Assembly (NCBI GenBank): GCA_021789555.1
Contig: JAJYJK010000024.1
Span: forward strand, 1 to 34,845
From: Nitrospirota bacterium
Lineage (GTDB): Bacteria > Nitrospirota > Thermodesulfovibrionia > Thermodesulfovibrionales > JdFR-88
DNA length: 34,845 nucleotides
Direction of reading: 5' to 3'
Numbering within the stretch: the first letter of the stretch is position 1; the number at the start of each line of letters is the position of its first letter. The translations under genes were made by a program, and so were the position numbers. Shown piece after piece: positions 1,050 through 33,867 of the stretch. The notes below the pieces were generated by a model. It ran no database searches and was not told the origin of the DNA. It saw nothing but the letters and a program-made list of their open reading frames with translations.

Positions 1050-4000
1050 TCACATTTTTTCAATCTTGACAGGCGTGTCATAATAAACCATGCCTCCGCC
1101 GATCATGTCCGTTAAAACAGTCGTCCATCCATCCTTTGAGGCGATGGAATGATCGAGCAGCATTAAATGATTTGGGTGCACCCCCTGATTTCTTGCCGCG
1201 CTGCCCGTATATCGTTTGCCGTTTATATACCAGGTGCCGGAACCGTTAAGCCACCTGCCAAAAGGCTGCGCATAGGTGACAACGCCCGGTCTTAAGGCAA
1301 AACGAACTCTTACTCTGTGGACAAGCCCCTTTTCATATGCGGGCGAACTTAATCTTACGAGATCGCCGTCTTTTATCCCGAGCTTTCTTGCATCCACATC
1401 GCTGATATCGATGAAGTTTTCCGGCATCAGTTCCAAAAGCCACGGGTCGGACGTCGTGCGCGATTTCGAATGAATGGGCTGTTTATATGTGGAAAGCATA
1501 AGGGGATATTCCTTCCTAGAATATATGCCGTATATGGGCACGCCCTTCATGTTGACCGGCGGCTTAAGCAATACCGAGCCGTTGAATCTTTCCCCTGTTA
1601 TTGCGTTATGGGTTTTAGCCACGTCTTCGTTGTAAATCTGGACGGCATTCTTGCCCGAGCCCCATCTGTGGGTCACCCATTCGGGGTTGCCCCACGGCAG
1701 GTATCCGACGTCGGGATTCTCAAACCTGCCGCCCCTTGAAAGCACATATGCGGCCTTGCTCCATTCTTCCCCTTTAAGGGCGTTGGGATATCTTTCCATG
1801 TACTGCTTGATGCTGTTTAATTCATCCGGGGCCGTCGCATTAGGGACCGGTCCCTGGACAACAAAATTATCTCCCTGTCTCGTTTGAAGGTGCTGGTTGT
1901 CGTATGCTATGTTTGCGAGCATTTTCAGATAATAGTCTTCCCGTACATTCAGATCCCCGCCTTCCAGAAAGGCGTTTTTGCCGAAACCCGGCAGGCCCAA
2001 TGCAATGGCGACGTCGATGAGAAAACTCTCCATTGAAACGGGGTTCCCCTTCGCCGTTTTTTGCGTGACGGGCTCGATCACCGGCTGTCTGATGGAAATC
2101 CTGGAGGTCGGGTATGTCGGGAAACCGCCGAGGAATCCCCAGTTCTCAAGGTATGATGTGTCGGGGATTATATAATCGGCGTACGAAGAGCTTTCCGATA
2201 TCATGATATCGCTGGCAATGAAAAGCGGGACTTTGTTCAAATCCTTGATCATCCTTATCCACATCAGGGAATCGTCGTCCGCGCCGCCCATGCCCGGCTG
2301 CGACCACGCCGGATTCCCGGCATGCTGAAACAGTATCTTTACGGGATATGGATATTGAAAATATGTCCCGCCCCAGATTTCCTGCCAAATCCCGAAACCG
2401 AATGGGAACCATGGGCGTTCGGCGGGGAATGGGGATTTTTTCTTTTTATATTCGCTGGTGCTCTCGTAGGAACTGCCCTCACGGGATATCTTTACGCCCT
2501 TCGCCGGCATTGAGTTGGGCCAATCGCCCAAATTATACTTGCCGCCCATGGCATTAGCGGCGCCGCCGCCATTAATGTATCCGCCTTTCCAGTCTATATT
2601 GCCCACGAGGGCGTTCAGCATCACCACCGCCCTTGCATTATAATAGCCATTTGCATGCATCGCGGCCCCCCGGTAAAAGTCGGCCGCCACTTTCCTTCCA
2701 TGGGAGGTGAATTCACGGGCCATCTCCACGATCAGACCCTTCGATATGCCTGCCTCTCTTTCATACTCTTCCATCGAATGGGATGAAACTTCCTTCCACA
2801 AAATCTGAAATCCGGTCAGGCACCGGATGCCCTTTACCATGACCGGCTCAGTTGACAGATATCCGGCAGGCCACAACTCGGCCCTGGGGCTCGATTTGGA
2901 CAACATGGGCCTCTTGGACGCCTTATCTATAACGTATGGCGTGTCCCCGGATTTCAGGAATTCTCCGTTATCGGGCCTGTTTTCATCGGCGATTACAAGG
3001 TAGGCCGCATTCGAATAATTGGGTTCGATGTTCTTGACCGCCGAATCATAATTCGGAATTTCCAGATATTTTTCATTATAGCGTCTGTTCCCGATAATCC
3101 ATTTGATCATCCCCATCGCAAAGGCGCCGTCGCCCCCCGGTTTTATCGGCACGTAGTCGGCATGCGCTATCTGGTTGCCCCCGCGCGGGTCAATGTACAC
3201 AACCTTTTTACCGCTTGAAGTCGCTTCAACCGACCTGCGCGCCAATGTCTGCATGGGGAAATTGGCCTGATAATAGTTGGCCCCGAAGTTAAGTAAAAAT
3301 TCGCAATTGGGCTGGTCGGGCTTCAGCATATTAGTGCCCGGGACCGTTCTGAAGGTGGCGACATGATGGGTGAGTTCGCAGACCGCGACATGGGGAAGGG
3401 CATTTACGGAGCCCAGCGCGTTTGCAAACCGTGTTATAAGATTGTTCTGTCCTCCTTCGGCCCTGCCCCAATAGGCGACAAACTGGTTTGTCTTGGCTCC
3501 AAAATCCGGATATTCCGCCCGCGCGGGAATTGTCCGGTTGGCGCCATTGTTCCATAACTGTTTAAATCCATCCACGTGCCTGGTCTCCTCTCCCGGCACG
3601 TCCTTGAATAAATGCCCCCCGTTTACAACCTCGTCTATCAACTGTTCATAGGATATCGCCTTGTATTTTCTTGACCCCCTTGGGCCGACCCGTTTTAAAG
3701 GCACATAAATCCTGTAAGGGTCATAGACCGTCTGTCTGCCGGCCTGTCCTCTCGGGCAAAGCGAGTGCGCGCCGCCGGTATACGTTACGGCATCCTTCAC
3801 CGGGGTATCGTATTCCAGGGGCGGCTCCGTAGCGTGTATGTCATAAGGGTTCCCGTCAAGTTTTATGAGCGTGCCGTTAAATACCCTTGCCGTAAGCCCG
3901 CAGACGCTGTGGCACTGCTTGCATGTGGAGAATTTGACTTCCACTCCGGGCCAGTTCTCCGTTCTGCCCGGATAAGTATATTTGCCGACATAATGGACAA

Positions 4001-4094
4001 AACTTTCGCCTTGCTGGCCAATGCCGACGCCAAGCCCCAGCAGGCCCGCCCCAAAGGTCGAATATTTTAAAAATTCCCTTCTATCCATGCTCAT
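1050..4094 (-). CDS. ttrA: Tetrathionate reductase catalytic subunit TtrA
   Basis: Molybdopterin-guanine-dinucleotide enzyme of 1014 residues that would reduce tetrathionate to thiosulfate on the outer face of the cytoplasmic membrane. A twin-arginine signal (DRREFLK) starts the protein. Cys58, 61, 65 and 113 (CKQCHSVC ... CPRG) bind a [4Fe-4S] cluster, and Cys239 in HVAVCELTHH sits where TtrA has its molybdenum ligand. Length and several blocks match enterobacterial TtrA as I recall it: LKRVGPRG then ISYEQLIDEVV, FGAKTNQ, PVSMESF...LPGFG, LSRGGRF and ITGERF. The gene order B-C-A is also that of enterobacterial ttrBCA. An ATG at 4088 is an alternative start. Related polysulfide, arsenate and sulfite enzymes are less likely because they are shorter and lack these blocks. 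The substrate is inferred from family resemblance. Confidence 0.85.
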   Translation of the reverse strand: MSMDRREFLKYSTFGAGLLGLGVGIGQQGESFVHYVGKYTYPGRTENWPGVEVKFSTCKQCHSVCGLTARVFNGTLIKLDGNPYDIHATEPPLEYDTPVKDAVTYTGGAHSLCPRGQAGRQTVYDPYRIYVPLKRVGPRGSRKYKAISYEQLIDEVVNGGHLFKDVPGEETRHVDGFKQLWNNGANRTIPARAEYPDFGAKTNQFVAYWGRAEGGQNNLITRFANALGSVNALPHVAVCELTHHVATFRTVPGTNMLKPDQPNCEFLLNFGANYYQANFPMQTLARRSVEATSSGKKVVYIDPRGGNQIAHADYVPIKPGGDGAFAMGMIKWIIGNRRYNEKYLEIPNYDSAVKNIEPNYSNAAYLVIADENRPDNGEFLKSGDTPYVIDKASKRPMLSKSSPRAELWPAGYLSTEPVMVKGIRCLTGFQILWKEVSSHSMEEYEREAGISKGLIVEMAREFTSHGRKVAADFYRGAAMHANGYYNARAVVMLNALVGNIDWKGGYINGGGAANAMGGKYNLGDWPNSMPAKGVKISREGSSYESTSEYKKKKSPFPAERPWFPFGFGIWQEIWGGTYFQYPYPVKILFQHAGNPAWSQPGMGGADDDSLMWIRMIKDLNKVPLFIASDIMISESSSYADYIIPDTSYLENWGFLGGFPTYPTSRISIRQPVIEPVTQKTAKGNPVSMESFLIDVAIALGLPGFGKNAFLEGGDLNVREDYYLKMLANIAYDNQHLQTRQGDNFVVQGPVPNATAPDELNSIKQYMERYPNALKGEEWSKAAYVLSRGGRFENPDVGYLPWGNPEWVTHRWGSGKNAVQIYNEDVAKTHNAITGERFNGSVLLKPPVNMKGVPIYGIYSRKEYPLMLSTYKQPIHSKSRTTSDPWLLELMPENFIDISDVDARKLGIKDGDLVRLSSPAYEKGLVHRVRVRFALRPGVVTYAQPFGRWLNGSGTWYINGKRYTGSAARNQGVHPNHLMLLDHSIASKDGWTTVLTDMIGGGMVYYDTPVKIEKM

Positions 4095-4106
4095 GAGGAA
4101 AACCCC

Positions 4107-5270
4107 CTAATCGGTTTCCGAGCCGCTTTCCGGCTCGTTTTCCCATCCCAGCAGCCATCCCAGAGAAAACAGCGCCACCAGCGCCGCGCCAAACAGTCCT
4201 ATGGCCGACAGTATCCCCTCGGGCCCTATCCACGGCGCATCAAAAACCACCAACCCCTGCTGCCCTATCTTGGGCAGCAATTGTCCGCCTATGACGGTGT
4301 CGTAACGCATCTCATATACGCCTATTAAAACAAGCGCCGACACTATCGATACAAGCACCTTGGACCGCCTGACGGCCGGCCGCGTAAGTAATACGGCCGG
4401 GACAATCAGCCCGAGCATGAGCTGCAAGAGCAGATAATTAAACGCCAGCGGACCTCCCAATCCAAAAATCCGCGCAAAGCCCGAATGGACGTCCAGTGAC
4501 GAATATGCCCTTACCCTAAAGAGACATTCAATCAGGTCCAGAAAGAGATCGAAGAATATCGCATAAAGCAGGTACTTGCCGAGACCGTCCAGGACTTCCG
4601 TGTCAACCTTGCCCTTATCGGAGTAAAAACTAAATCCTATTACATAAGCCAGGATGACGAAGGCCATGCCCGAAACCAGCGCGGAGGTAATAAACAAAAT
4701 GGGCATAAGGGGGTCCGACCATAGGGCCCTCGCCTTTATCGCGCCGAAAATAAATCCCACATAACCATGGAATATGAATGCCAGAACCACACCTATCGCC
4801 GCTATGATCGCAAGCGCTTTTTTGTCCCTTTTCCGGGAATCCCCGGAGAGATCGGCGTTGCCGAATGTAAGAAAACCCGCTATTGAACCGCGCAGTCCCG
4901 GCAAACCGGCCCTCTGTACATTCGTCGGACGGAAAACATAATAAATTTCAAAGACCATCAATATCACATATAACGTCCAGACTATTATGAATACACCCAG
5001 GGCGGAGTACGGGAAATGGTCCCTCAGATATAATTCAATAATCGCCCTTGACGGCTGCAATGAGTCAACAAGCGGAGCCAGGGCGGCCACCAGGAGCATC
5101 GAAAAACTCAATATTGCAGCTAATTTGACCACGGGTTCGAATTTTTTCAGACCAAACAGCTGCGATAATGAGGCGACTACGAACGAGCCGGCAACCAGAC
5201 CTGAAAAAAAAGGATATATCACAATGGGCAAGCCCCATACCGGATTTTCCAGAAATTGTGGCGTCATCAT
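4107..5270 (-). CDS. ttrC: NrfD-family membrane subunit TtrC
   Basis: Polytopic membrane protein of 387 residues with about nine or ten hydrophobic segments, of the NrfD/PsrC family. In tetrathionate reductase this subunit anchors the complex and passes electrons from menaquinol to the iron-sulfur subunit. The first segment (VWGLPIVIYPFFSGLVAGSF) has the usual family opening. It starts 15 nt after ttrB and ends 12 nt before ttrA, so the three genes form one transcript. No haem or iron-sulfur motif is present, as expected. It is slightly longer than enterobacterial TtrC (~340 residues), partly from a charged cytoplasmic loop near residues 135-150. Family is certain; the Ttr assignment rests on the neighbour. 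Confidence 0.8.
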   Translation of the reverse strand: MMTPQFLENPVWGLPIVIYPFFSGLVAGSFVVASLSQLFGLKKFEPVVKLAAILSFSMLLVAALAPLVDSLQPSRAIIELYLRDHFPYSALGVFIIVWTLYVILMVFEIYYVFRPTNVQRAGLPGLRGSIAGFLTFGNADLSGDSRKRDKKALAIIAAIGVVLAFIFHGYVGFIFGAIKARALWSDPLMPILFITSALVSGMAFVILAYVIGFSFYSDKGKVDTEVLDGLGKYLLYAIFFDLFLDLIECLFRVRAYSSLDVHSGFARIFGLGGPLAFNYLLLQLMLGLIVPAVLLTRPAVRRSKVLVSIVSALVLIGVYEMRYDTVIGGQLLPKIGQQGLVVFDAPWIGPEGILSAIGLFGAALVALFSLGWLLGWENEPESGSETD

Positions 5271-5285
5271 ACCGTGTCCCCCAGT

Positions 5286-6392
5286 TTAGGATTCATAAGG
5301 ATTTTTCTTTTCTTCCGCAAGCGGCAATTCGACTTTGCCGCCCAACTGCCTGTATGCCGTGGTATTGAACCCCATGGTATAAGTAAAAGACTTGGTGGCC
5401 TTCCCCAGATCGGTCGCGCCTGTCAAATCTCCATTCAGGTCAATATAAAACACCTGTGGGTCGGTGCCTTTTCCGAGCATAAGCCGGGAGACGGGATGAC
5501 TTGAAATAAGCCTTGACACCCTGCTTTTCGGATCGTTTAAATCGCCGAAAACTCTCGCCCTTCCCACACACGACGTGACACATGCCGGCTCCAGCCCCCT
5601 GTCAATCCTGTGGACGCATAATGTGCATTTATCAGCCGTGCGCTGAACGGGATTGAAGAACCTCATATCGTACGGGCAGGCCTGAACGCATGTCCCGCAG
5701 CCGATGCAGATGTTGTAATCAATCAAAACTATGCCGTCTTGCCGTTTAAATGTCGCTTTTACCGGGCAGACCTCGACGCACGGCGGCGCGTCGCAGTGAT
5801 TGCATATTCTGGGAAGCATGTCCTTCCTTACATTAGGCGTATAATTCCCATCGTCAGTAATAACAATGCCGTTAGGGTCCTCTTCCATGCGCCCCGTTTC
5901 AGTAACGTCCACTACTGTCCTGAACACGCTCAAGGGCACATTATTTTCGCTTTTGCACGCAATTACACAGGCCTGGCACCCCACGCATCGGCGCAAATCC
6001 ATAACCATTGCCCAATGGTGTTTCGGGTGTGTTTTCCTGATGGCGTGGAAATTATCGTGCCATATCGGCAATTTATTCGGATTTTCAATGTTCTCCCAGT
6101 TGTTCCAGCCGTCCTCCGCATCGAATGCTTGATTCATCCAGCCCATCCACCTGTGGTCCTTGATGGGGCCGGTGATTTGACCGGAATCCGCATCAGGCGT
6201 ATTGTAAGCGCCGGTCCTTTTTTCTCTCTTCCTGATGACGGTCTTATCTTCTGCAAATGCGGTGAAAGCCTTGCCAATGATCGTGCCCATTGCCAAAAAA
6301 CCGCCCGCCATCAGCGTAACCGCTTTTAAAAACCCTCTCCTCTTATCTTCAATAGGCACAGATTCATTCACCTTTTTTGAATAACCGTCCAT
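5286..6392 (-). CDS. ttrB: Iron-sulfur subunit TtrB (four [4Fe-4S] clusters)
   Basis: Exported ferredoxin-like electron-transfer subunit of 368 residues. A Tat motif (KRRGFLK, residues 17-23) is followed by a hydrophobic stretch ending near AFA-ED. Four cysteine groups are visible: C136/139/142/146, C197/200/205/209, C229/232/235/239 and C256/259/271/275, the standard set for DmsB/PsrB/TtrB-type proteins. It would carry electrons from TtrC to TtrA. It is first in the operon, with a clear ribosome site (GGGAGGT, 6 nt before the ATG). The region between the signal and the first cluster is ~90 residues longer than in enterobacterial TtrB and contains many Trp and His residues, with no function I can name. 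A sigma-54 promoter lies about 217 nt upstream. Confidence 0.85.
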   Translation of the reverse strand: MDGYSKKVNESVPIEDKRRGFLKAVTLMAGGFLAMGTIIGKAFTAFAEDKTVIRKREKRTGAYNTPDADSGQITGPIKDHRWMGWMNQAFDAEDGWNNWENIENPNKLPIWHDNFHAIRKTHPKHHWAMVMDLRRCVGCQACVIACKSENNVPLSVFRTVVDVTETGRMEEDPNGIVITDDGNYTPNVRKDMLPRICNHCDAPPCVEVCPVKATFKRQDGIVLIDYNICIGCGTCVQACPYDMRFFNPVQRTADKCTLCVHRIDRGLEPACVTSCVGRARVFGDLNDPKSRVSRLISSHPVSRLMLGKGTDPQVFYIDLNGDLTGATDLGKATKSFTYTMGFNTTAYRQLGGKVELPLAEEKKNPYES

Positions 6393-12886: not shown

Positions 12887-14839
12887 TTACCTGAATTGTT
12901 CCATGTATTTTGCGGCTTCCCGAGGATTATGAAAGACGGATTCCTTGAGCCTTTTGAACCGTATCAGTTTTTCCTTGTCAAAATGTCTTGCGTTTTTTTC
13001 AAGCAGGCCGATTCTTTTTCCCGCCTCAAGGGCCAGTCTGAGGGCCTCGCGGTATTTTAGCGGGTCGGTTTTTATCGAGAAATCCCCCGGTGCCTTCCAT
13101 TTGTCCTTCATATAGAGCCACGCCGCGAAATCGGCAAGCCTGGCGCCTTCAACAGGCACGACAGGGGTCATGTTTTTGAGGTCTTCTATCCGGAGGCCGT
13201 CCTTGACGGCGACGATCCTGTGCGTTCCCTTGAAGGGTGTCGCCCCCTGATCGTCCATGAACTCCCACCGGGAATTGGACACCTGCAATCCGTCTTTCCG
13301 GTGGCAGGAGGCGCACCCTCTGGCCTTGCCGTAAGGGTGCGCGGCTTGTTCTATCTCTATCCAGAGCAGTTGTTTGTTGTCCGCCGGGAGGCCGTCAACT
13401 GTGCCCACAATGTAGTAGGCGTCTTTTGTCTGGCCATCAGGCCAGCGGAACATTATCCCTGGGGACCGGGGGACGTCCTTTTTGAAATTGCCAAGGCTGT
13501 GGGGCCATATCTTTACCGGCATCCACATGCCCTTCTGGTCTTTCATGAGTATGGGTGGGCTCTGCATGCCGTAGTAGAGCGAGTATTTTTTAAATGGGTT
13601 TGGCCTTCCGGCAACGAGGCCCGGCCCCCACATCGTGAGTTGATATCCCCTAAGCTCGCCTATATGGCAGGCAGCGCAGTCCATATTCTTATGCACGCTT
13701 TTTGCCAGGGCGTCTTCAGCCTCCATATGGCAGTCCTGGCAGGTGGCCTTCCTGATCATGTCGCCCATTCCTTTGGGGCCCATAAAATGGCAGTCCACGC
13801 ATTGTATGCCTTTTGTGTAATGGATGTCGGGTTTCATGCCCTCAGGGATTGAATAGGAGCCGCCTATATAGGTTTCGCCCCTCCGGCTCTGCATAGCCCC
13901 CGGGTGGCAGATGCTCGTTCCGCGGCCGTCTCCGGCGCAGCTTTCGGCCGGGGGTTTTATGACAAAATTATGTACGCCCTGCCTGCGGTTTGGGGCGTAA
14001 TGGCAATCCAGGCAGCCCGGATGACAAACGTTGCAGAACCTCTGCTTGGCCCGGGCCTGCTCATCAGTGAAGGGCATATCCATTTCGGCCGCTATCTGTT
14101 TTGTGTTTGAGTAATCGAAACCGCTGCCCTTCAGGACCTTCCTGGGCGGCAGGTCCGCAAATGAAGGGCCGCAGTTATGGGGGCCGAAGGGCACCAGCCA
14201 GGTTTCCATCCTGCGCTGCCTGTAGTTGCTCCCCATATCGGTCGTTACGAACTGTTTTAGCTCGTCCGGATGGCAGGAGGATTTCCCGCAGGTCTTTTTG
14301 GCGATTTCTGGGTCAAAATTCAAAGTCACGGGGTTTCTGTCCTGCCAGAGGAGGTCCCTCACCTCCGGGTTCACGTAAAGCTTCCCGTCAGGGGATTTCA
14401 CCTTCGGAAGAAGCTCCCTTATGCCGGCTGGGCCGGTGGGCAGGAGGGCGCTCGGCAGCACGTCCCTTCTATTCAGGACGCTCCCGTTATATCCTATGAA
14501 AAGCGCCTTCAACATCCCCTTATGGGCTTCGCGCATGTCCCTGGCCCTGCCGTTTCCAAGATGGCAGTCCCGGCAGGTTACATTCGGGTGATGGCTTTGC
14601 CTGGCTACTATCTCCGGGGTGACGTAAAACTCGGGATAGCCGAGCTTTGCGAGTTTTTCCCTGTTTCCGTGGCACGCCACACATTCGGCGCTCGAGTTGA
14701 GCCATGCCCTGTAGCCCGAAACTGCGATTACAATGAAAAACTGAATAAAAAAAAGAGCAAGGATAATTTCCCTTGAAAAAAACCTTCTAAAGTAGGCTGG
14801 ACTGAAAATCTTCACGGCATTTTCCATTAAAGCTAACAT
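12887..14839 (-). CDS. Membrane-anchored multihaem cytochrome c (up to ten haems)
   Basis: Protein of 650 residues with one N-terminal transmembrane helix (about 25-45), like NapC/NrfH anchors, and a large periplasmic domain. Eight CXXCH motifs begin at residues 53, 89, 269, 276, 347, 367, 388 and 509. Two further candidates are unusual: CGKSSCH at 184 (CX4CH) and C301...C311-H312 (CX9CH). The last haem follows a ~115-residue haem-free insert, and the C-terminal ~130 residues are haem-free and helical. It could carry electrons from the quinol pool to a periplasmic reductase, or itself be a reductase. I do not recognise a named family. The start is uncertain (ATG at 14827 also possible) and neither has a good ribosome site. 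Confidence 0.85.
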   Translation of the reverse strand: MLALMENAVKIFSPAYFRRFFSREIILALFFIQFFIVIAVSGYRAWLNSSAECVACHGNREKLAKLGYPEFYVTPEIVARQSHHPNVTCRDCHLGNGRARDMREAHKGMLKALFIGYNGSVLNRRDVLPSALLPTGPAGIRELLPKVKSPDGKLYVNPEVRDLLWQDRNPVTLNFDPEIAKKTCGKSSCHPDELKQFVTTDMGSNYRQRRMETWLVPFGPHNCGPSFADLPPRKVLKGSGFDYSNTKQIAAEMDMPFTDEQARAKQRFCNVCHPGCLDCHYAPNRRQGVHNFVIKPPAESCAGDGRGTSICHPGAMQSRRGETYIGGSYSIPEGMKPDIHYTKGIQCVDCHFMGPKGMGDMIRKATCQDCHMEAEDALAKSVHKNMDCAACHIGELRGYQLTMWGPGLVAGRPNPFKKYSLYYGMQSPPILMKDQKGMWMPVKIWPHSLGNFKKDVPRSPGIMFRWPDGQTKDAYYIVGTVDGLPADNKQLLWIEIEQAAHPYGKARGCASCHRKDGLQVSNSRWEFMDDQGATPFKGTHRIVAVKDGLRIEDLKNMTPVVPVEGARLADFAAWLYMKDKWKAPGDFSIKTDPLKYREALRLALEAGKRIGLLEKNARHFDKEKLIRFKRLKESVFHNPREAAKYMEQFR

Positions 14840-15177: not shown

Positions 15178-16212
15178 ATGTACAGGTCTGATTTCTGCAT
15201 GGCCGGCGTATTCCGGGACGTTTTTTTGTTCAGGGACTATTTGAGGATGAAAGCGCTTTTCCTTCTTGTCGCCCTTCTTGCCTTTTTCCTTTATTTGATG
15301 AGGGTTTTCCGGGTCATATCCACCTACCCTCCTTCCTTTTTCGGCGCCCCTTCGGTTGCGAATCTAGTTGGCGGCGTGCTCTTCGGCGTGGGGATGGTGC
15401 TTGGCGGGGGCTGCATGCTAGGGACCCTTTACAGGCTGGGGACAGGAAACACCGCCAGCGCCATCACTTTTTGCGGGATACTGCTTGGCGGGTTTGCATC
15501 AGCCGTGATTTATCCATCAATCCATTCATTCGCAAGCTCAACCGTGCTTTTTAAAGATAAGACCGCTCTGGAGCATATCATTGGGAACGCTGCGGCCCCT
15601 GTGCTGGCGTTGTCGCTATTGCCCATTGCCCTTGCCTGGAGATGGATAAAAACCGGGAGATGGTCGCAGGCGGCCTACGCCCGCGGATACCTACCGCTCT
15701 GGAAGGCATCCTTCATGATGGCCTTTGTCATAGCGGCATCAGTTGCCCTTTCGGGGCGGCCCCTCGCGGTAAGCACCGGTTATGCAAAGCTTTCAGGTTT
15801 TCTGGGCGTCTTGTTTCTGCCGGCCGTTACCGGAAAGCTTGCATTTTTCCGCGTGCAGTCGCCGAGGCTTCTGTACGGGAGCATAATGAACGGCGGGGCT
15901 GGCCCGGTGATTGATTCCGTTTTCCTGACCCAGCTTCCCCTGATGGCGGGTGTTGTGGGAGGGTCTTTCCTGTCATCTTTGAGGCTTGGGGAGTTCAAGA
16001 TACGACGCCTGCCCCCCGCAAGGCAGGCCTTTTCAGCTTTTTTCGGAGGGATGCTTATGGCGGCCGGGGCGCTTATGGCGGCGGGCTGCAACCTATGGCA
16101 CATCATCGGTGGGCTGCCCGTGTTCGCGCTTCAAAGCATCCTTTTTGTTTTCGGCGCCGCGGGCGGCGCCTTCCTGGGGGCGGTCTTTCTAAGGAAAATC
16201 GTTATCAAGTAA
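15178..16212 (+). CDS. YeeE/YedE-family sulfur (thiosulfate) transporter
   Basis: Inner-membrane protein of about 344 residues with many hydrophobic helices. It has the three cysteine motifs of the YeeE/TsuA family: DFCMAGVFRD, GGGCMLGTLYRLGTGN and AAGCNLWHIIGGLP. In characterised thiosulfate uptake proteins these cysteines line the pore and pass thiosulfate by transient S-H-S contacts. The next gene is TusA-like, the normal partner. The annotated ATG cuts into the first helix: the upstream codons in the same frame (15097-15177) encode a good first half (VVSAQFAAGLALGSI), but the only start-like codon there is a CTG at 15118 and a stop lies at 15094. A CTG start or a sequence error is likely. 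Substrate: thiosulfate or other sulfane sulfur, by family. Confidence 0.85.
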   Translation: MYRSDFCMAGVFRDVFLFRDYLRMKALFLLVALLAFFLYLMRVFRVISTYPPSFFGAPSVANLVGGVLFGVGMVLGGGCMLGTLYRLGTGNTASAITFCGILLGGFASAVIYPSIHSFASSTVLFKDKTALEHIIGNAAAPVLALSLLPIALAWRWIKTGRWSQAAYARGYLPLWKASFMMAFVIAASVALSGRPLAVSTGYAKLSGFLGVLFLPAVTGKLAFFRVQSPRLLYGSIMNGGAGPVIDSVFLTQLPLMAGVVGGSFLSSLRLGEFKIRRLPPARQAFSAFFGGMLMAAGALMAAGCNLWHIIGGLPVFALQSILFVFGAAGGAFLGAVFLRKIVIK

Positions 16213-16230: not shown

Positions 16231-16482
16231 ATGGAACACACGGCTGAAGATATCGTCCTCGACGTAAGGGGGCAGATATGCCCGGCATGTCTGCTGATTA
16301 CCCTGAGCGAGCTGAACAGCAACAAGGAAAGGCTCAAGGGCGAGAAGGCCAGGCTGGTAGTTAAAACTGACCACCGGGACGCGACAAGGACAATACCTGG
16401 TGCGGCTTTTGCGATGGGGTACAGCGTATCTGTAGTACAGAAGGAAAGGCATTACGAGATAACCCTGGAGCATGAGAAATGA
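16231..16482 (+). CDS. TusA/SirA-family sulfur carrier with CPAC motif
   Basis: Protein of 83 residues with the TusA fold: a short beta strand (IVLDVRGQICPAC), a long helix, and a C-terminal strand pair. The catalytic Cys17 carries persulfide sulfur in this family. Normally the motif is CPxP; here it is C17-P-A-C20, so a second cysteine replaces the usual proline. The gene follows YeeE after an 18-nt gap with a GAGAGGGG ribosome site, matching the YeeE-YeeD/TsuA-TsuB pairing in which the carrier takes sulfur from the transporter. Its stop overlaps the kinase start (ATGA), which ties sulfur uptake directly to the sensor. A sensory rather than purely metabolic role is possible. Confidence 0.85.
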   Translation: MEHTAEDIVLDVRGQICPACLLITLSELNSNKERLKGEKARLVVKTDHRDATRTIPGAAFAMGYSVSVVQKERHYEITLEHEK

Positions 16483-17774
16483 GCAGCGCCGGAAAAATTG
16501 AGGAAACGGACCTCAGGACAAGCAATGAAAGGCTTAAAAAATACATCCGGGAGAAGGTGAACCATCTGCTTTCCGTCATGGGCACGAAACCCCTGAACAA
16601 AGAGGAACTGGACGACAGCACCCTTATAGAGCTGGACCCCATAGGGATAATAGCGCTTTCCTTTGAACAGGTCCTTGAGCACCAGAAGGAGACCAACAGG
16701 CGGCTTACTGTCGCAAAGGACCAACTGCAGGCCGTTTTTGATACCGTGGGGGTTTGCATATCGATAATAGACGAGGACATGAGGATCGTCAACTGCAATG
16801 AAAAACAGAAGGAACTCCTCGTCTCCTCCAATACAAAGGCAATCGGCAGGCACTGCTACGATATTTACTGCGGCAAGGATTCTCCGAACCTTGATTGTCC
16901 GGCCGTAGAGACCCTGGCAACGGGCAAACCCGTTTTCATCCGCGAGGTGAAAAAGAAGCACAAGCATTTCCAGATCGTCACATCCCCGCTGAACGATGCG
17001 GACGGCAAAGTCACCGGCGTCATTGAGGTTTCAATGGATGTGACTGAAAAAAAGAAAGTCGAGGAGCTTATGCGCCAGGCCGAAAAACTTACGGCCGTCG
17101 GGCTTCTGGCGGGCGGCATAGCCCATGAGCTCAATAACCCGCTGGGCAATATCCTGGGCTACGCGACGCTTCTGCTGAAAGACAGGGAATCCGGCCTGAG
17201 GCCGGAGCACAGGGAAAAGCTTGAGATAATCGTGGAGCAGGCGAAAAAGGGCGGCGATATCATAAGGGGGCTCCTGGATTTCTCCCGCCAGTCGGTGCCT
17301 TCGTTCTCAAATGTACCAATAAACGATATCATCAGGAAGACCGTCCGCACCCTTCAAAACAGGTTCAGCTCCCAGAGGATCAAAACAGACGTCGTGCTTC
17401 CGGAGACGTTCATCGTGCGGGCGGACCCGCGCCAGATAGAGCTTGTCATCCTGAACCTGCTGCTTAATTCGATTCAGGCCTTCGAGGGAGTAAACGGGCG
17501 GGAAAAGACCATCTCGGTAAGGACCGGGCGCGAAAATGATTTCGTCCAGGTGACAATAGCCGACAATGGCCCGGGAATACCCGAAGAGATACTTCCCAAC
17601 ATATTCGACCCGTTCTTCACGACAAAGCCCATCGGCAAAGGCGCGGGGCTCGGACTTTCGATTTGTTCGGGCATCATCAAGGAACACAAGGGCTCAATTC
17701 ACGCGGGCAGCGAGGCCGGCAAGGGGACGGAATTCGTCTTCCTGCTTCCGGCGGCGGGCCCCGCATCCGGTTGA
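16479..17774 (+). CDS. Cytoplasmic PAS-domain histidine kinase
   Basis: Soluble histidine kinase of 431 residues without transmembrane segments. The first ~85 residues are helical and charged. A PAS domain (about 85-190) contains a cysteine-rich stretch, HCYDIYCGKDSPNLDCP, which may bind a metal or react with sulfur species. The HisKA motif GGIAHELNNPLGN has the phospho-accepting His216, and the HATPase domain shows NLLLNSIQAF, ADNGPGIPEE and GKGAGLGLSI. It is coupled by overlap to the TusA-like gene and is followed by a sigma-54 response regulator. A cytoplasmic sensor behind a sulfur importer suggests it reads the internal sulfur or persulfide state, possibly through the TusA-like protein. 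The signal is inferred. Confidence 0.88.
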   Translation: MSSAGKIEETDLRTSNERLKKYIREKVNHLLSVMGTKPLNKEELDDSTLIELDPIGIIALSFEQVLEHQKETNRRLTVAKDQLQAVFDTVGVCISIIDEDMRIVNCNEKQKELLVSSNTKAIGRHCYDIYCGKDSPNLDCPAVETLATGKPVFIREVKKKHKHFQIVTSPLNDADGKVTGVIEVSMDVTEKKKVEELMRQAEKLTAVGLLAGGIAHELNNPLGNILGYATLLLKDRESGLRPEHREKLEIIVEQAKKGGDIIRGLLDFSRQSVPSFSNVPINDIIRKTVRTLQNRFSSQRIKTDVVLPETFIVRADPRQIELVILNLLLNSIQAFEGVNGREKTISVRTGRENDFVQVTIADNGPGIPEEILPNIFDPFFTTKPIGKGAGLGLSICSGIIKEHKGSIHAGSEAGKGTEFVFLLPAAGPASG

Positions 17775-17790
17775 AGCGGGGGAGGGCTTT

Positions 17791-19134
17791 TTGTTCAGTG
17801 TCCTGGTAGTCGAAGACGATTTCAGGATGAGGGGCCTCATCAAGGAGCTCCTTGAAAAGCAGGGCTACAGCGTCACCGCCAGCCATGACGGCAAGGATGC
17901 CGTCCCCCTTATCAAAGAGCGGGCCTTTGATGTTGTCCTCACGGACCTCAGGATGCCGGATATTGACGGCATGGACGTCCTTTCCTGCGCCAAGGAGGCA
18001 AGCCCCTGCACGCCCGTTGTCATGCTCACGGGTTTTGCCACCGTTGATTCAGCCGTCGAGGCGATGAAAAGAGGGGCCTACGATTACATACAAAAACCTT
18101 TTGAGCCTGACGTCCTCCTGCTTACGGTAAAAAGGGCGGCGGAATACCACAGGCTGGTTGATGAAAACCTGAAGCTTTCGGCCGAGCTTGAAAGGTGCTT
18201 CGATTACGAGTTCGTGGGCTCAGGCAGGGCCGTAACAGAGCTTAAGAAGCTGGTGGAGAAAGTGGCCCCGCTGGACACGACGGTGCTTATCCAGGGGGAA
18301 ACGGGAACGGGGAAGGAGATGGTCGCAAGACTCATACACAGGCTTAGCCCCAGGGCGGAAGAAAAGTTCCTGCCAATAAACTGCGGGGCTATTCCTGACA
18401 CGCTCATAGAGGCCGAGCTTTTCGGATATGAAAAAGGTTCCTTCACAGGGGCCGCCGGGCAGAAAAAGGGGCTCTTCGAGGCTGCAAACCGGGGCACTAT
18501 TTTTCTTGACGAGATAAATAACGCTTCCTGCTCCCTCCAGATAAAATTGCTCAGGGTATTGCAGGAGGGGAGCTTTATAAGGGTCGGGGGCGTTGAGCCC
18601 ATAACGGTTGACGTGCGGGTAATCGCCTCCTGCAATACCGATCTTGCCAAAGAGGCGGAGGAGGAAAAGTTCAGGAAAGACCTGTTCTACCGCCTGAACG
18701 TCGTCACGCTTTCAATCCCGGCCCTGAGGGAGAGGAAAGACGATATCCCATACCTTGCCCGGCATTTCCTTGCCAAATACGGCAAGAGATTCTCAAAAGA
18801 AATAAATTCCATCACCCCGGAAGCCTTGGCGGCCCTGGCAGAGCACCAATGGCCGGGAAACGTCAGGGAACTTGAAAATTGCATAGAGCATGCCGTTGTC
18901 ATTGAAGGGGGAAATGAAATAACTCCCGGGTCCCTTCCAAGAGAAATCCTGAAGAAGAAACACTATACGGACCCGTTCGCGCATACGGGTGTTTCCAAGC
19001 TCAATGAAACTGAAAAATTCCTCATCCAGAGGGCCTTGAGGGTCTTTGACGGCCAGAAGGCAAAAACGGCTGAAGCCCTGGGCATCAGCATCACCACCCT
19101 CTGGAGAAAACTTAAAAAACTCAACCTGGAATAA
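17791..19134 (+). CDS. Sigma-54-dependent response regulator
   Basis: NtrC-type activator of 447 residues. The receiver domain begins VLVVEDDFRMRGL and has the acceptor Asp in VVLTDLRMPDIDG. The AAA+ domain carries GETGTGKE, AELFGYEKGSFTGAAG and GTIFLDEI. The C-terminal Fis-type helix is GISITTLWRKLKKLNLE. The sigma-54 loop reads GSFTGA rather than GAFTGA. I place the start at TTG 17791, which gives a normal receiver N-terminus and follows a strong GGGGGAGGG; longer forms run into the kinase gene in another frame. A palindrome and sigma-54 promoter lie just downstream, so it probably controls the secreted-protein/rhodanese/porin genes. Its recognition helix is almost the same as that of the regulator at 31220. 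Confidence 0.85.
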   Translation: MFSVLVVEDDFRMRGLIKELLEKQGYSVTASHDGKDAVPLIKERAFDVVLTDLRMPDIDGMDVLSCAKEASPCTPVVMLTGFATVDSAVEAMKRGAYDYIQKPFEPDVLLLTVKRAAEYHRLVDENLKLSAELERCFDYEFVGSGRAVTELKKLVEKVAPLDTTVLIQGETGTGKEMVARLIHRLSPRAEEKFLPINCGAIPDTLIEAELFGYEKGSFTGAAGQKKGLFEAANRGTIFLDEINNASCSLQIKLLRVLQEGSFIRVGGVEPITVDVRVIASCNTDLAKEAEEEKFRKDLFYRLNVVTLSIPALRERKDDIPYLARHFLAKYGKRFSKEINSITPEALAALAEHQWPGNVRELENCIEHAVVIEGGNEITPGSLPREILKKKHYTDPFAHTGVSKLNETEKFLIQRALRVFDGQKAKTAEALGISITTLWRKLKKLNLE

Positions 19135-19179: not shown

Positions 19180-19215
19180 GCATTTCAAAATGAAAAGTTT
19201 TTCATTTTGAAATGC
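19180..19215. promoter_or_regulatory. Perfect inverted repeat, likely activator site
   Basis: Arms GCATTTCAAAATGAAAA and its exact reverse complement, with a GT spacer. Each arm contains its own small palindrome (CATTT-CA-AAATG), which suggests two dimers side by side. It is 76 bp upstream of a sigma-54 promoter and directly behind the response regulator gene. There is no T-run consistent with a simple terminator, although the hairpin would be stable. Confidence 0.6.
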
Positions 19216-19291: not shown

Positions 19292-19307
19292 TGGCATCCT
19301 TCTTGCT
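19292..19307 (+). promoter_or_regulatory. Sigma-54 promoter for the secreted-protein/rhodanese/porin genes
   Basis: TGGCATCCTTCTTGCT matches the -24/-12 consensus TGGCACRNNNNTTGCW at GG, CA, TTGC and the final W, with exact spacing. Transcription would begin near 19319, about 110 nt before the first start codon. The rest of the gap 19135-19431 holds the inverted repeat at 19180-19215 and no gene. Confidence 0.75.
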
Positions 19308-19431: not shown

Positions 19432-19995
19432 ATGGCGGATGCGAAAATGGTCTCCCCACGGCAGAGACTGTGGGGTATTGAAAATTTAATAAAGCGGAAA
19501 ACTGCCGCCACTGTCATCGTGGTAATTGCCCTTTCCTTAACATCTGCCATTTCCGCGGAGGATATTTTCAGTTGGGGCGAGGAAACACCATCCGGCGTTG
19601 TCGCACAGGCCTCATCCGGGCGGCCTTTGAAGGTCACCGATGAGCATCCCGTGACGGTCTTTTTTTCCTTCAGGTTGAAAGGAGGTGTTTCAAAGGTAAG
19701 GTTTCTTATTTCAAAGAGTGACAGGGCTGAAGGCATCACTTTGCTGGAGGAGACGGTAAATGTCAAAGACAACATGGCGGCGTCACGCCTGCTCTTGAAC
19801 ATCCATAGAGGAACACCCCTTGGAAGGCATGACCTTTTCATCCAGGTTGTAGATGCCGAAAAAAACGTGAAAATCTGTACAGGCAAAATACCTTACATAC
19901 TTTTGCCTGCCGGGACGGAATGCATGTGCCAGATGATTTCAGTTAAAGGCAAATCAGAAAAACACAACACATTGGGAGGTGTCGAATATGAGTAA
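19432..19995 (+). CDS. Secreted beta-sandwich-like protein, Cys-containing C-terminus
   Basis: Protein of 187 residues with an uncleaved-looking basic N-terminus and a signal peptide (TAATVIVVIALSLTSAISA) predicted to be cut before EDIFSW. The mature part is rich in alternating hydrophobic residues, as in an immunoglobulin-like beta sandwich. The end reads KIPYILLPAGTECMCQ, then a charged tail. It resembles its neighbour at 19988 over the last ~100 residues (PLGRHDLFIQVVDAEK against PLGRFDMPIVMVDARTK, then ILLPAG against MLLPAG), so the two are paralogues. I chose the ATG at 19432, which has a GGAG ribosome site 7 nt upstream; a TTG at 19384 is less likely. No known family recognised. A sulfur-binding role is inferred from the cysteines and neighbours. 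Confidence 0.7.
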   Translation: MADAKMVSPRQRLWGIENLIKRKTAATVIVVIALSLTSAISAEDIFSWGEETPSGVVAQASSGRPLKVTDEHPVTVFFSFRLKGGVSKVRFLISKSDRAEGITLLEETVNVKDNMAASRLLLNIHRGTPLGRHDLFIQVVDAEKNVKICTGKIPYILLPAGTECMCQMISVKGKSEKHNTLGGVEYE

Positions 19996-20473
19996 ACGGG
20001 TAAAACCCGGTTTCAGGATCATGATCTGTCTGGTTTCATGCCTTATTGCCGGCTTTGGTATCACGCCGACCGGCCGCGGTATTCAAAAAAGCATTCAGCC
20101 GGCATTCGCCGAAGAAACACAGGGCGCGCAATTTGCCTGGCAATCGAACCGGCCTGGCACCACGAGGGCGCAGATAGCCCTCGGCAGGGCCACCCGCCTC
20201 CGTTTTGAGTTCACCGTGAAAAACGCAGAGGGCACCAGGGTGCAGTTTGTCATTGCAAGTAAATTCGCGGAAATGGGAATAAAAATCAATCCGGACGAAG
20301 CCACCATCACAAATGGAATGGCGCAGTCAGAGGCGCAAATCTCCTGCCCTCCCGGTGCGCCTCTGGGGAGGTTCGATATGCCGATTGTAATGGTGGACGC
20401 CCGGACGAAAAAGGAAATGGGCAGGGGAATAATACAATTCATGCTCCTTCCCGCCGGTGTCGGCGGCTGCTAG
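19988..20473 (+). CDS. Secreted beta-sandwich-like protein ending in Gly-Gly-Cys
   Basis: Protein of 161 residues with a long signal peptide, likely cut after QPAFA. The mature domain (~115 residues) looks beta-rich and is related to the preceding protein. The very last residues are LLPAGVGGC, so the protein ends in a glycine-rich arm with a terminal cysteine; another cysteine lies in QISCPPGAP. The terminal arm recalls the swinging arm of the thiosulfate carrier SoxY (GGCGG), but I see no SoxY sequence match, so this is analogy only. The start at ATG 19988 overlaps the upstream stop (ATGAGTAA) and has GGGAGGT 7 nt before it. A covalent carrier of sulfane sulfur in the periplasm is one reading. 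Confidence 0.7.
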   Translation: MSKRVKPGFRIMICLVSCLIAGFGITPTGRGIQKSIQPAFAEETQGAQFAWQSNRPGTTRAQIALGRATRLRFEFTVKNAEGTRVQFVIASKFAEMGIKINPDEATITNGMAQSEAQISCPPGAPLGRFDMPIVMVDARTKKEMGRGIIQFMLLPAGVGGC

Positions 20474-20635
20474 GAAAGAAGGGCCAAACACATGGATGAA
20501 TTCAAATTCGGGATATTGGGCTGGTGGAGGGATGAAGGAGGCGAATTTATTTTTTTGATACAAAAATAACTTGGGGCTTTGCGGTCAAAGGCAAAAGGTA
20601 CAAATAGGAAAACAAGAATGTTTGAGGAGGTAACG

Positions 20636-21946
20636 ATGCTAAGGCAGCCGGGAAGAAAAAAAGGTGTGCTTCTCTTTTTGGTGCTGGCCCTTGCCTTTAT
20701 TTTACAGAACTGCGGCGGTGGAGGGGCGACATCAAGCTACGATCCCCCTTCCACCACCGCTACGGGCGCTGTAATAACCGCGGACACAGTCAAAGGCTGG
20801 GTGGACAGTGGAAAGGTAAACGGAACGGGCTACGACAAGGTGGTAATTCTCGATCTGGGCAGCGCAACAAACTACGGCAACGGCCACATCCCGGGCGCCC
20901 GGTCCCTGAATTCCGCAAACATTTACGAAAATCGCGACGAGGGCGCCATTGAGGACGTCAACATGGTCCTTGACGGCCCCACGATGGATGCCCTCATCCA
21001 GAAATACGGGATTGACGGGAACACCACTATCGTATTTACCAGCGCGGACCCTACGTCGACTAACATAGTCCCATACTGGACTGTCTGCAGGGCGTACTGG
21101 ACTTTCCGTTATTGGGGGTTCCCCAAGGACAGGCTCAAAATCCTTAACGGCCTCGACGCCGCTTATGCCGATACATATGGTCTGACCAACGCTATTCCCC
21201 CGTTCGCTGTCCCTTCCACATACAGTGTCAGGCAAAACCCGTCTTTCAGGGGCGACCTCAGGGCGTCCCTGGCGGACATGATAAACATAGCCGACGGCAA
21301 GGTCCCGAACACCCTTGTAATAGACACAAGGGGCCAGGACGGGGATGGGTATGACACAAAGTCCTCTTACAGCGGGGACAAGGACCAGACGCCCGGCGTG
21401 TGGAAGCCAGGCACCTGGGTGGCGTTTGAGGGCCACATCAATGGCGCTATTGCGCTGAACTCCAATTTTTTCTTCAAAACGGTGACGGGCAACACCCAGA
21501 CCTACAAGGTCTTCCTTCCCGCTTCGGACATGGCTGCGCTCTTTACAAAAGCGGGGCTGGACTCCACAAAAATGGCCGTCGTGCACTGCCGCACGGGTGT
21601 TATCGCCTCCTCGGGATTCGCCGCGCTTGATGCCGTCCTGGGCTGGCCGGTCGAAAATTACGACGGCTCCTGGAGCCAGTGGGGAATGCTGGCTTCAACA
21701 GCCAACTGCGGACCGCTGGACCCCAACTCGCCCTGGAGGACGGACACCCCCCAGCGCACCCAAAATCTCACTTTCAATGGCACCGCCCCCGCCTGCACCG
21801 GCATCGAAGACGCGACCAATGGCGGCGTGTATGCCGTTACCTCATTCGATACCGACCTGAACCAGATGGAGGAGCAAGACAGCGCTTACTTCTCCGGAGG
21901 GGCCGGCGGCAGCGGCGGCGGCGGTGGAGGCAACATAGGATGCTAG
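20636..21946 (+). CDS. Tandem rhodanese-domain lipoprotein with Gly-rich Cys tail
   Basis: Protein of 436 residues exported with a signal peptide ending FILQNC-GGGG. The likely lipid-modified Cys26 has an unusual Asn before it instead of Gly/Ala/Ser. Two rhodanese domains follow. The first (about 45-190) has TSADPT where the active cysteine should be (residues 135-136) and is probably inactive. The second (about 215-370) has HCRTGVIAS with the persulfide-forming Cys318. The C-terminus is a run of Gly and Ser ending NIGC. The start at ATG 20636 follows GAGGAGG. Rhodaneses move sulfane sulfur from thiosulfate or persulfides. In Geobacter a rhodanese-like lipoprotein (ExtH) lies next to a porin-like protein (ExtI) linked to selenite and tellurite uptake, a similar pairing. 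Confidence 0.85.
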   Translation: MLRQPGRKKGVLLFLVLALAFILQNCGGGGATSSYDPPSTTATGAVITADTVKGWVDSGKVNGTGYDKVVILDLGSATNYGNGHIPGARSLNSANIYENRDEGAIEDVNMVLDGPTMDALIQKYGIDGNTTIVFTSADPTSTNIVPYWTVCRAYWTFRYWGFPKDRLKILNGLDAAYADTYGLTNAIPPFAVPSTYSVRQNPSFRGDLRASLADMINIADGKVPNTLVIDTRGQDGDGYDTKSSYSGDKDQTPGVWKPGTWVAFEGHINGAIALNSNFFFKTVTGNTQTYKVFLPASDMAALFTKAGLDSTKMAVVHCRTGVIASSGFAALDAVLGWPVENYDGSWSQWGMLASTANCGPLDPNSPWRTDTPQRTQNLTFNGTAPACTGIEDATNGGVYAVTSFDTDLNQMEEQDSAYFSGGAGGSGGGGGGNIGC

Positions 21947-22008: not shown

Positions 22009-23205
22009 ATGAAGGGAGCGCAAAAAAAATTTCTGTTGCTTGCGCTATTTGCAGTTTCGTTCTTTCTTGCGGCCGGCAACGCCTTCGCGCTGCCCCCCAT
22101 AGTTTTCGGCAATGAAGGGGCTTTTCTTAAAATAGACTATCAGGGCCAGCTCTACGGCGTATGGAGAGACACGGGTTCGGGCGCCAGCAAGCAAAACGAC
22201 TCCACCGATATCTTTTTCAGAAGAAACAGGCTCAGTTTCTGGGCGCACGGCACCAGCAATTACGGCGCGATTGTGCAGCTTGAGTATGTAGGCGAAAGAA
22301 ACATTAACGACCTTACTGTGAGCGACGTGCCGGGCTCCAGCTTAGAAGTGCTTGACGCCTACTTCATGTGGGATTTCAGCAACGAATTCAGGGTTTATGC
22401 AGGCAAGCAGAAAATACAGCTCACGAGGGAAAACCTTGAAGACTGCTTTGAGCCCCTCAGTCTCGACCGCTCGCTTTTCATCTATACCCTGAAGCACAGC
22501 AGAGATACAGGCCTTGTGCTCTGGGGAAACCTGCCAGACATCAAAAGCCAGTACCGCGTCGAGGTCTCAAAGGGCAATGACGGCAACAACTCCCCGCAGA
22601 GCGGCCTCATGTATACGGCCCGGTTTCACGTCTCGCTCTGGGACCCTGAATACGCCTACGGTTACAAGGGCACATATCTTGGCAAGAAAAAAGTGCTGAC
22701 CATCGGCGTCGGCGGGCAGTTCGAGCCCGATGCCGTGTACGCCGACAGCGTTTCGCACACGGGGGCAAAAACCTATTATGCATATACGGCCGATGCCTTC
22801 ATGGAATATCCGCTTGCCAAGGGGACTTCCGCCGTTACATTGTCCGGAGCTTATCTCAAGGAGTCTTTTAACAACGCATACCAAGGGAGCAATCCCGACC
22901 CAAACAGCATCGGCCAGGACGGCGAAAAGAACGGCTGGTACGTTAAGGCCGCCTATCTTCTGCCCGGCAGGATCGGCCCAGGGCAAGTCCAGCCTTTCGT
23001 ACGCTATGAGGAATGGAAGTACGCGGACATGTTTAACGTCTTCGACCAGAAGATAAACTGGACGGGGGCGGGGGTCAACTATCTCATAGACGGACAGAGC
23101 CTGAGAGTGACAGTGCAGTACTCAAGGACGGATTTCAACAAGGAGGTAAACGCCCAGTCGCAGAGCTTTAATACCGTGACCGCGATGCTTCAGTACAGGT
23201 TTTAG
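22009..23205 (+). CDS. Outer-membrane porin (OprP/ExtI-like beta barrel)
   Basis: Protein of 398 residues with a signal peptide (LLALFAVSFFLAAGNAFA) and a beta-barrel pattern of alternating residues throughout, closing with the aromatic C-terminal motif AMLQYRF of outer-membrane proteins. The region around VYAGKQKIQLTRENL resembles phosphate-selective-porin-type families. The start at ATG 22009 follows GAGGAGG with 6-nt spacing; longer forms overlap the rhodanese gene in another frame. It is the last gene of the unit and is followed by a strong terminator. It probably lets an oxyanion or small sulfur compound across the outer membrane for the rhodanese lipoprotein and the transporter. The substrate is not known from sequence. 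Confidence 0.85.
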   Translation: MKGAQKKFLLLALFAVSFFLAAGNAFALPPIVFGNEGAFLKIDYQGQLYGVWRDTGSGASKQNDSTDIFFRRNRLSFWAHGTSNYGAIVQLEYVGERNINDLTVSDVPGSSLEVLDAYFMWDFSNEFRVYAGKQKIQLTRENLEDCFEPLSLDRSLFIYTLKHSRDTGLVLWGNLPDIKSQYRVEVSKGNDGNNSPQSGLMYTARFHVSLWDPEYAYGYKGTYLGKKKVLTIGVGGQFEPDAVYADSVSHTGAKTYYAYTADAFMEYPLAKGTSAVTLSGAYLKESFNNAYQGSNPDPNSIGQDGEKNGWYVKAAYLLPGRIGPGQVQPFVRYEEWKYADMFNVFDQKINWTGAGVNYLIDGQSLRVTVQYSRTDFNKEVNAQSQSFNTVTAMLQYRF

Positions 23206-32815: not shown

Positions 32816-32866
32816 AATGTCTAATTGAAAATTAAAAAAACACTGATTTTAAAGACAAAAGATGGC

Positions 32867-32882
32867 TGGCAAGGATTTTGCC
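32867..32882 (+). promoter_or_regulatory. Sigma-54 promoter of osmC-dsrE
   Basis: TGGCAAGGATTTTGCC matches TGGCA-N-R-N4-TTGC with exact spacing, differing at C6 and the last base. Expected transcription start is near 32894, about 34 nt before the ATG at 32928. This shows that an upstream ATG at 32862 is not the protein start. Confidence 0.75.
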
Positions 32883-32927
32883 AATCAAATACTGGAAAAT
32901 CAAAAACCTTTATGGGGAGGTAGGACA

Positions 32928-33455
32928 ATGCCGGTAATAAATGGGCTGAACACGGATGATCTCGTCAAGGTAGTAGAGACAGTAAAACAGAAATGGGAAA
33001 CGGGCAAGACGGTCTGGAAAGCGTCCACTGACTGGAAGGGCGGCTTCCAGGTGCAGACCTGCTCAAGGGATTTCACCCTCACGGTAGATGAGCCGGAGAT
33101 GCTCTGCGGGACCAATATGGCTTCAAACCCGGTGGAGATGGTGCTGCAGGCCTACGGCGCCTGCCTTACTATCGGTTTTGCCATGAATGCCGCGGTAAGG
33201 GGGATAAAGCTGAACGGGATACATATCGATCTGGAAGGCGAAATCGATCTTCCGGGGTTCCTCGGGCTTGAGCCGCCGGAGAGCTTGCACATGGATAAGC
33301 TGCCGGGATATAAGACCGTGCGGGCAAAGATAAAGATAGATTCCCCCGCTGATAAGAAAGCCCTGCAGGAGCTTCATGATCAAGTAATGAAGACATCTCC
33401 TGTTGGCATCACCCTCTCAAGGCCGGTAAAACTGGAATCCAAGCTGGAGATCTGA
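32928..33455 (+). CDS. OsmC-family protein
   Basis: Protein of 175 residues with an OsmC fold, a family of thiol-dependent peroxidases and related persulfide or hydroperoxide handlers. The helix NPVEMVLQAYGACLTIGFAM holds the first conserved cysteine. The second family cysteine, usually just before PV near the end, is replaced by Ser in TSPVGITLSRPV, so a standard two-Cys peroxidase cycle is unlikely. The ATG at 32928 follows GGGGAGGTAGG and is the only start compatible with the sigma-54 promoter. It is followed at once by a DsrE-family gene and shares control with tusA. A role in moving or detoxifying persulfides is inferred. Confidence 0.85.
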   Translation: MPVINGLNTDDLVKVVETVKQKWETGKTVWKASTDWKGGFQVQTCSRDFTLTVDEPEMLCGTNMASNPVEMVLQAYGACLTIGFAMNAAVRGIKLNGIHIDLEGEIDLPGFLGLEPPESLHMDKLPGYKTVRAKIKIDSPADKKALQELHDQVMKTSPVGITLSRPVKLESKLEI

Positions 33456-33456
33456 C

Positions 33457-33867
33457 GTGCCAAAGACATTGAAGGCGCCTGATGAAGTTGCATCGCCGCC
33501 GGCGGAACTGTTTATAGTGCTCTGCGCCGCCGGTTTCGATTCCCCCGAGCGGGTCCGTTCGGCGCTCATGTTCGCGACCCTTGCCGCGGCCGGCCAATAC
33601 AAGGCTGTACTCTACTGCATACAGGGCGCGGTCGATGTAATGGTGAAAGGGGCCGTTGAGAACCATGAGTCCCCGGATTCATCCGCGCCAACTATCGGCC
33701 AGAGGCTTCGGGAGGCGATTGATATGGGAGTGCAGATACAATGCTGCTCACAAAGCATGGCGAACAGAAAGTTGCGGCCGGAGGACATGCTTGAGGGCGT
33801 AGAAATAGAAGGAGCTATGAGCCTGATCGAGCTTACAAGCAGGTCTAAAGGAAACCTTTGTTTTTAA
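33457..33867 (+). CDS. DsrE-family sulfur-transfer protein
   Basis: Protein of 136 residues of the DsrE/DsrF-like fold. The opening VLCAAGFDSPERVRSALMFA and the block GVQIQCCSQSMANRKL with LEGVEIEGAMSLIEL are typical; the paired cysteines in QCCSQS match the position of the active cysteine. DsrE proteins pass persulfide sulfur to or from TusA. It begins with GTG one base after the osmC stop, with GGAGA upstream, so the two are co-translated. With tusA under the same type of promoter, the three form a plausible cytoplasmic sulfur relay. A conserved His is not obvious. Confidence 0.85.
   Translation: MPKTLKAPDEVASPPAELFIVLCAAGFDSPERVRSALMFATLAAAGQYKAVLYCIQGAVDVMVKGAVENHESPDSSAPTIGQRLREAIDMGVQIQCCSQSMANRKLRPEDMLEGVEIEGAMSLIELTSRSKGNLCF

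Follow-up and report, generated by a model that had tools for sequence, protein, structure and literature searches.

Two small exported proteins of Nitrospirota that probably form a periplasmic sulfur shuttle

Two small exported proteins, sm1 and sm2, encoded in the window (the whole stretch of 34,845 nucleotides that was analyzed, from a sulfur-metabolizing Nitrospirota bacterium) are probably a previously undescribed sulfur shuttle across the periplasm. The balance of the evidence tips toward a more specific reading, in which both are carriers of periplasmic sulfane sulfur from a rhodanese to a YeeE-type transporter with a cysteine ladder. The literature search returned no paper describing sm1, sm2, or an ExtH protein with a terminal cysteine. 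The handover of periplasmic sulfane sulfur to channels of the YeeE/SoxT type is an open question for both sulfur oxidation and disproportionation. Many sulfur bacteria have no Sox system. In Sox-containing bacteria, SoxYZ has been suggested as the donor (PMC11582611). If our reading is correct, sm2 would be a clean donor, having a single invariant terminal Cys and being linked to one transporter subfamily, and the poorly understood ExtHI rhodanese-porin pair would be tied to sulfur import. The features on which the argument draws are as follows, in window coordinates.

15178..16212, + strand: YedE/TsuA-like Sulf_transp membrane protein, first gene of the cluster (PF04143, E 3.6e-45)
16231..16482, + strand: TusA-family cytoplasmic sulfur carrier with a CPAC motif (PF01206, E 6.5e-11)
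16479..17774, + strand: sensor histidine kinase, assigned from the ORF sequence; position kept in relatives
17704..19134 (start codon approximate), + strand: sigma54-type response regulator (receiver, AAA+, HTH), assigned from the ORF sequence; position kept in relatives
19180..19215, no strand assigned: perfect 16-bp palindrome GCATTTCAAAATGAAAAGTTTTTCATTTTGAAATGC, candidate UAS for the response regulator
19292..19307, + strand: sigma54 promoter-like site TGGCATCCTTCTTGCT, exact match, 0.21 expected per window
19432..19995, + strand: sm1, exported Ig-like small protein of 187 aa, LLPAGTECMC followed by a 21-aa extension
19988..20473, + strand: sm2, exported Ig-like small protein of 161 aa, C-terminal end LLPAGVGGC
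20493..20570, + strand: scar left by deletion of a YeeE-type transporter gene (MDEFKFGILGWWR...), about 13 codons
20636..21946, + strand: ExtH, double-rhodanese lipoprotein of 436 aa from ATG 20636, active-site Cys318, Gly-rich tail ending NIGC
22009..23205, + strand: ExtI, outer-membrane porin-like protein directly downstream of ExtH (Pfam Porin_O_P)

An earlier note on this DNA had singled out three C-termini, namely LLPAGVGGC in sm2, NIGC in the rhodanese, and TECMC of sm1 in the position of GVGGC, and all three read as it described. In sm2 the stop codon, TAG at 20471-20473, follows directly on this ending, and LLP[AP]GVGGC closes every sm2 relative whose 3' end is intact. The terminal Cys is the same in 13/13 aligned copies and in all further full-length copies, and M152-L-L-P and G-V-G-G-C are invariant in the 13-sequence alignment. 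Given that only 3 of 253 long ORFs (~1%) outside the small-protein and ExtH families at the same loci end in Cys, its presence in all GGC-type sm2 relatives that have intact 3' ends is not due to chance. Moreover, the terminal Cys is the sole Cys of the precursor in 8 of the 13 relatives, so that an intramolecular disulfide is impossible in these proteins. Structure prediction gives sm2 as an Ig-like sandwich, with most of the mature part above pLDDT 90, and places the terminal Cys on a seven-residue coil (residues 155-161) after the last strand (143-154), in keeping with the carrier proposal of the earlier note. Neither sm1 nor sm2 matches a Pfam or NCBIfam family, and a PDB sequence search with the sm family profile gave matches at chance level only. 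The fold search of sm2 against the PDB returned generic Ig, PapD and ASH-like domains with no functional lead. In a pattern-based search that covered 84,980 species, all sm2 matches came from Nitrospirota or from unnamed bacteria, and no sm2 was found on the plasmids searched.

The earlier note took the carriers to be unrelated, which proved wrong: sm1 and sm2 are paralogues that share 30% identity (E about 6e-12). Its alignment of TECMC with GVGGC stands, in that LLPAGTECMC of sm1 aligns with LLPAGVGGC of sm2 and the CMC with the sm2 Cys, although the CMC is not C-terminal in the window because 21 residues follow it. Extensions of 21-28 residues after the CMC are seen in the sm1 copies of the window's own family; these, like the lack of detectable homology between sm2 and SoxY, we count against a carrier role. 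Nevertheless, CxC is the exact C-terminus of 6 of the 10 full-length sm1 copies, the endings including ECLC and, in more distant relatives, KCSC. These CxC ends, a motif often found at redox and metal sites, together with the adjoining and overlapping genes (the sm2 start overlaps the sm1 end by 8 nt), might instead reflect thiol-disulfide exchange, the sm2 Cys and the sm1 CxC forming a mixed disulfide or a redox relay by which persulfides are reduced or resolved and no cargo is carried. We regard this as unlikely, since no thioredoxin-type protein was recognized in the cluster and several genomes have no sm1 beside sm2; there sm2 works with its single Cys and without a CxC partner, and sm1 is evidently not essential to the module. 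A third sm paralogue (L057 2856-3350; L058 9611-10105) ends in LVPAGGD and has no terminal Cys and no Cys at all, which counts in favor of sulfur carriage by the cysteine-bearing paralogues. The possibility of a selenocysteine at the end of this third paralogue (GGD-TGA) was rejected, as read-through gives no family-like continuation.

The neighbors of sm2 are sulfur-transfer proteins, which bears out the sulfur setting proposed in the earlier note. In loci long enough to show it, the conserved order is YedE, TusA, histidine kinase, response regulator, (M54), (sm1), sm2, YeeE-type transporter and rhodanese, with small changes, and different families of the order share this cluster. It ends with ExtH-ExtI or carries a soluble exported rhodanese; in about one-third of the sm2 loci the rhodanese is a different one and ExtHI is missing. 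Both Cys residues of the TusA CPxC motif are invariant in 14 loci, and the YedE-like protein encoded at 15178..16212 has three conserved Cys and scores under the NCBIfam TsuA/YedE cut-offs. A sigma54-type promoter motif is found downstream of the response regulator gene in nearly all relatives, and palindromes similar to that of the window, of the form TTTCAAAATGAAA...TTTCATTTTGAAA, lie between the response regulator and sm genes in several of them. An archaemetzincin-like (M54) gene is present in the cluster of most relatives (for example L051 5923-6483, L061 7300-7857 and L055 6500-7093) and absent from the window. Elsewhere in the window, genes for OsmC-like and DsrE-like proteins stand side by side at 32862-33867, ~10 kb downstream, and positions 1050-6392 hold a TtrA-like molybdopterin reductase operon that also encodes membrane and FeS subunits; the score of its catalytic subunit falls under the TtrA cut-off.

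The conserved partner of sm2, which the earlier note missed, is a predicted YeeE/TsuA-type membrane transporter. It has 467 aa in the relatives and four invariant Cys, and it scores under the NCBIfam cut-offs for TsuA and YedE/FdhT. Of 396 Nitrospirota genomes, 15 carry an orthologue, and each of these belongs to the group of 17 with a GGC-type sm2 (hypergeometric 2.5e-25, uncorrected for shared descent). In the window, blastn shows that 1.6 kb of locus L051 is missing at about 20527-20531, and no full copy of the transporter was found elsewhere in the window's genome. As read from the assembled sequence, a clean 1.6-kb deletion has removed the transporter gene, although a misassembled contig is possible. 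No copy was found in a second sm2 genome (G269) either. The transporter being missing from both, these two organisms have kept the carrier without its usual partner, and the remaining YedE would have to serve; we count this loss against the carrier interpretation.

The sulfur donor in the window would be ExtH, which ends in GGAGGSGGGGGGNIGC followed by TAG at 21944-21946. It scores 300.7 bits with NF040901 against an equivalog cut-off of 200, and its HCRTG motif sets the active-site Cys at 318. The predicted structure is a double rhodanese in which Cys318 lies just after a strand and before a helix. The tail (residues 422-436) is predicted to be disordered, at pLDDT about 28-35, in agreement with the mobile Gly-rich arm that the earlier note envisaged. 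The invariance of the terminal Cys, which holds for all full-length copies of sm2, fails for ExtH: the protein ends in Gly-Cys in 12/12 genomes in which ExtH and sm2 occur together, and in Gly-Tyr in 8/8 genomes that have ExtH and no GGC-type sm2. By comparison of these homologues the terminal Cys of ExtH is lineage-specific and not universal, and the Cys/Tyr split probably represents one change in the ExtH tree and not twenty independent cases. Five loci with Tyr-type ExtH (L134, L135, L136, L140 and L141) have, between the ExtH and ExtI genes, a gene for a tiny exported low-complexity protein whose last residues are ECGC, ECSC, CGC or CCC.

A terminal Cys could also act, with no cargo involved, as a signal for sorting or attachment, for instance by tethering its protein covalently to lipid, the porin or some other protein. 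The CGC, CSC or CCC ends of the small exported proteins that genomes lacking sm2 encode between ExtH and ExtI fit this idea, and so does the fixed last residue of the ExtH tails, whether Cys or Tyr, as a C-terminal signal might have. The sm2 Cys, however, is preceded by no hydrophobic or sorting-signal region, its short tail follows directly on the domain, and neither sm1 nor sm2 gave a match to a C-terminal sorting family, and we therefore consider a signal of this kind quite improbable.

ExtI scores 449 bits with NF040900 against a cut-off of 150. Because NF040901 and NF040900 are equivalogs for the selenite/tellurite proteins of Geobacter, the scores of ExtH and ExtI raise the alternative that the cargo is selenium or tellurium and that the module, like Geobacter ExtHI, handles products of selenite or tellurite. 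In G. sulfurreducens, mutation of extI impairs the reduction of both oxyanions (PMC5877670), which adds to this case, as do the in-frame TGA codons at the active-site Cys of some ExtH relatives. Several points argue against this alternative, however. The extK-S cytochrome genes are not recognizable beside ExtI, the third of sm2 loci with another rhodanese manage without ExtHI, and the TusA and YeeE-type neighbors point to sulfur, even though YedE homologues have also been linked to selenium. On these grounds we think a selenium or tellurium cargo improbable. The TGA codons lie exactly at the rhodanese active site in ExtH of four genomes (L029, L032, L037 and L114; URTG or URTA) and probably encode selenocysteine. 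SelB matches were found in 26/26 genomes tested, 25 of them over the cut-off, and single-sequence folds gave no convincing SECIS-like stem-loop after the ExtH TGA codons.

Returning to sulfur carriage, conservation, operon structure, co-occurrence, signal-like N-termini and fold class are taken from sequence or prediction, while the direction of flow, the persulfide chemistry and the partner contacts are what we infer. Rhodaneses carry persulfide on their active-site Cys. Sulfur would enter through the porin ExtI, or would already be in the periplasm, and a periplasmic rhodanese would take it on its active-site Cys (Cys318 of ExtH here, that of a soluble rhodanese elsewhere) and pass it to the sm2 terminal Cys. 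The C-terminal Cys, in the GGC of sm2 and the CxC of sm1, would thus be the covalent carrier of sulfane sulfur. The seven-residue arm of sm2 would then present the persulfide to the cysteine ladder of the YeeE/SoxT-type transporter, from which TusA would receive the sulfur in the cytoplasm. In this lineage the Gly-rich tail of ExtH with its final Cys may serve as an extra arm for unloading Cys318, and sm1 may assist sm2. The conserved cysteines of YeeE have been proposed to pass thiosulfate on to YeeD, which is TusA-like (PMC11073785), and a handover of sulfur by SoxY to SoxT has been described as conceivable (PMC11582611); the role of sm2 at the YeeE-type transporter would resemble this possible role of SoxY at SoxT. 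A broader proposal, to which we give a little less than even credence, is that these proteins are an unrecognized family of periplasmic sulfur carriers that evolved separately from SoxY and supply a dedicated transporter of the YeeE type with sulfur from an outer-membrane-linked rhodanese, and that terminal-Cys arms have arisen several times (in sm1/sm2, in the ExtH tail, and in the tiny CGC/CSC/CCC proteins).

SoxY holds sulfur covalently on the Cys of a swinging arm (PMC5336275), and the earlier note saw the same solution here. The likeness of form stands: like SoxY, sm2 is small, exported and Ig-like, and its last strand leads into a short C-terminal Gly-Gly-Cys arm. SoxY of related genomes ends in TIGGCGG or TIGGC, compared to GVGGC at the exact terminus of sm2, and sm2 has no twin-arginine motif. 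Homology of sm1 or sm2 to SoxY was rejected, because neither gave a Pfam match to the SoxY profile PF13501 and the hhalign profile-profile comparison of A1 with 12 Nitrospirota SoxY sequences returned a probability of 0.2%; SoxY is also absent from the best 50 PDB fold matches of sm2. No Sox genes (SoxZ, SoxXA, SoxB) occur among the cluster neighbors and no SoxY was found in the window's genome, while some genomes have both SoxY and sm2. By analogy, sm2 would work like SoxY without detectable homology to it. With the ext cluster of Geobacter the window shares a rhodanese lipoprotein gene followed by a porin gene, both products over equivalog cut-offs. In contrast to that cluster, ExtHI is here clustered with sm1 and sm2 behind a sigma54-type promoter, and ExtH ends in Cys in the window's lineage. 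The window's ORF list has no extK-S multiheme cytochrome or Rieske/cytochrome b genes directly downstream of ExtI, and the one cytochrome tested (12887-14839) scores far under the Ext cut-offs. The cluster is like the YeeE/TsuA, SoxT and YedE systems that work with TusA or YeeD in that it includes a TusA gene and encodes Sulf_transp proteins whose Cys are conserved, but the 467-aa variant is found only with sm2. The YTD cluster of sulfur disproportionators comprises yedE, tusA, dsrE and chp1-3 (PMC12998232), and the present cluster resembles it in the adjoining yedE and tusA, in its conserved hypothetical proteins and in its occurrence in Nitrospirota, whereas the DsrE gene (33457-33867) is not adjacent and lies ~13 kb from ExtH. 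In Desulfurivibrio dismutans, a porin gene is co-localized with genes for periplasmic sulfurtransferases and YeeE/YedE (PMC12142623).
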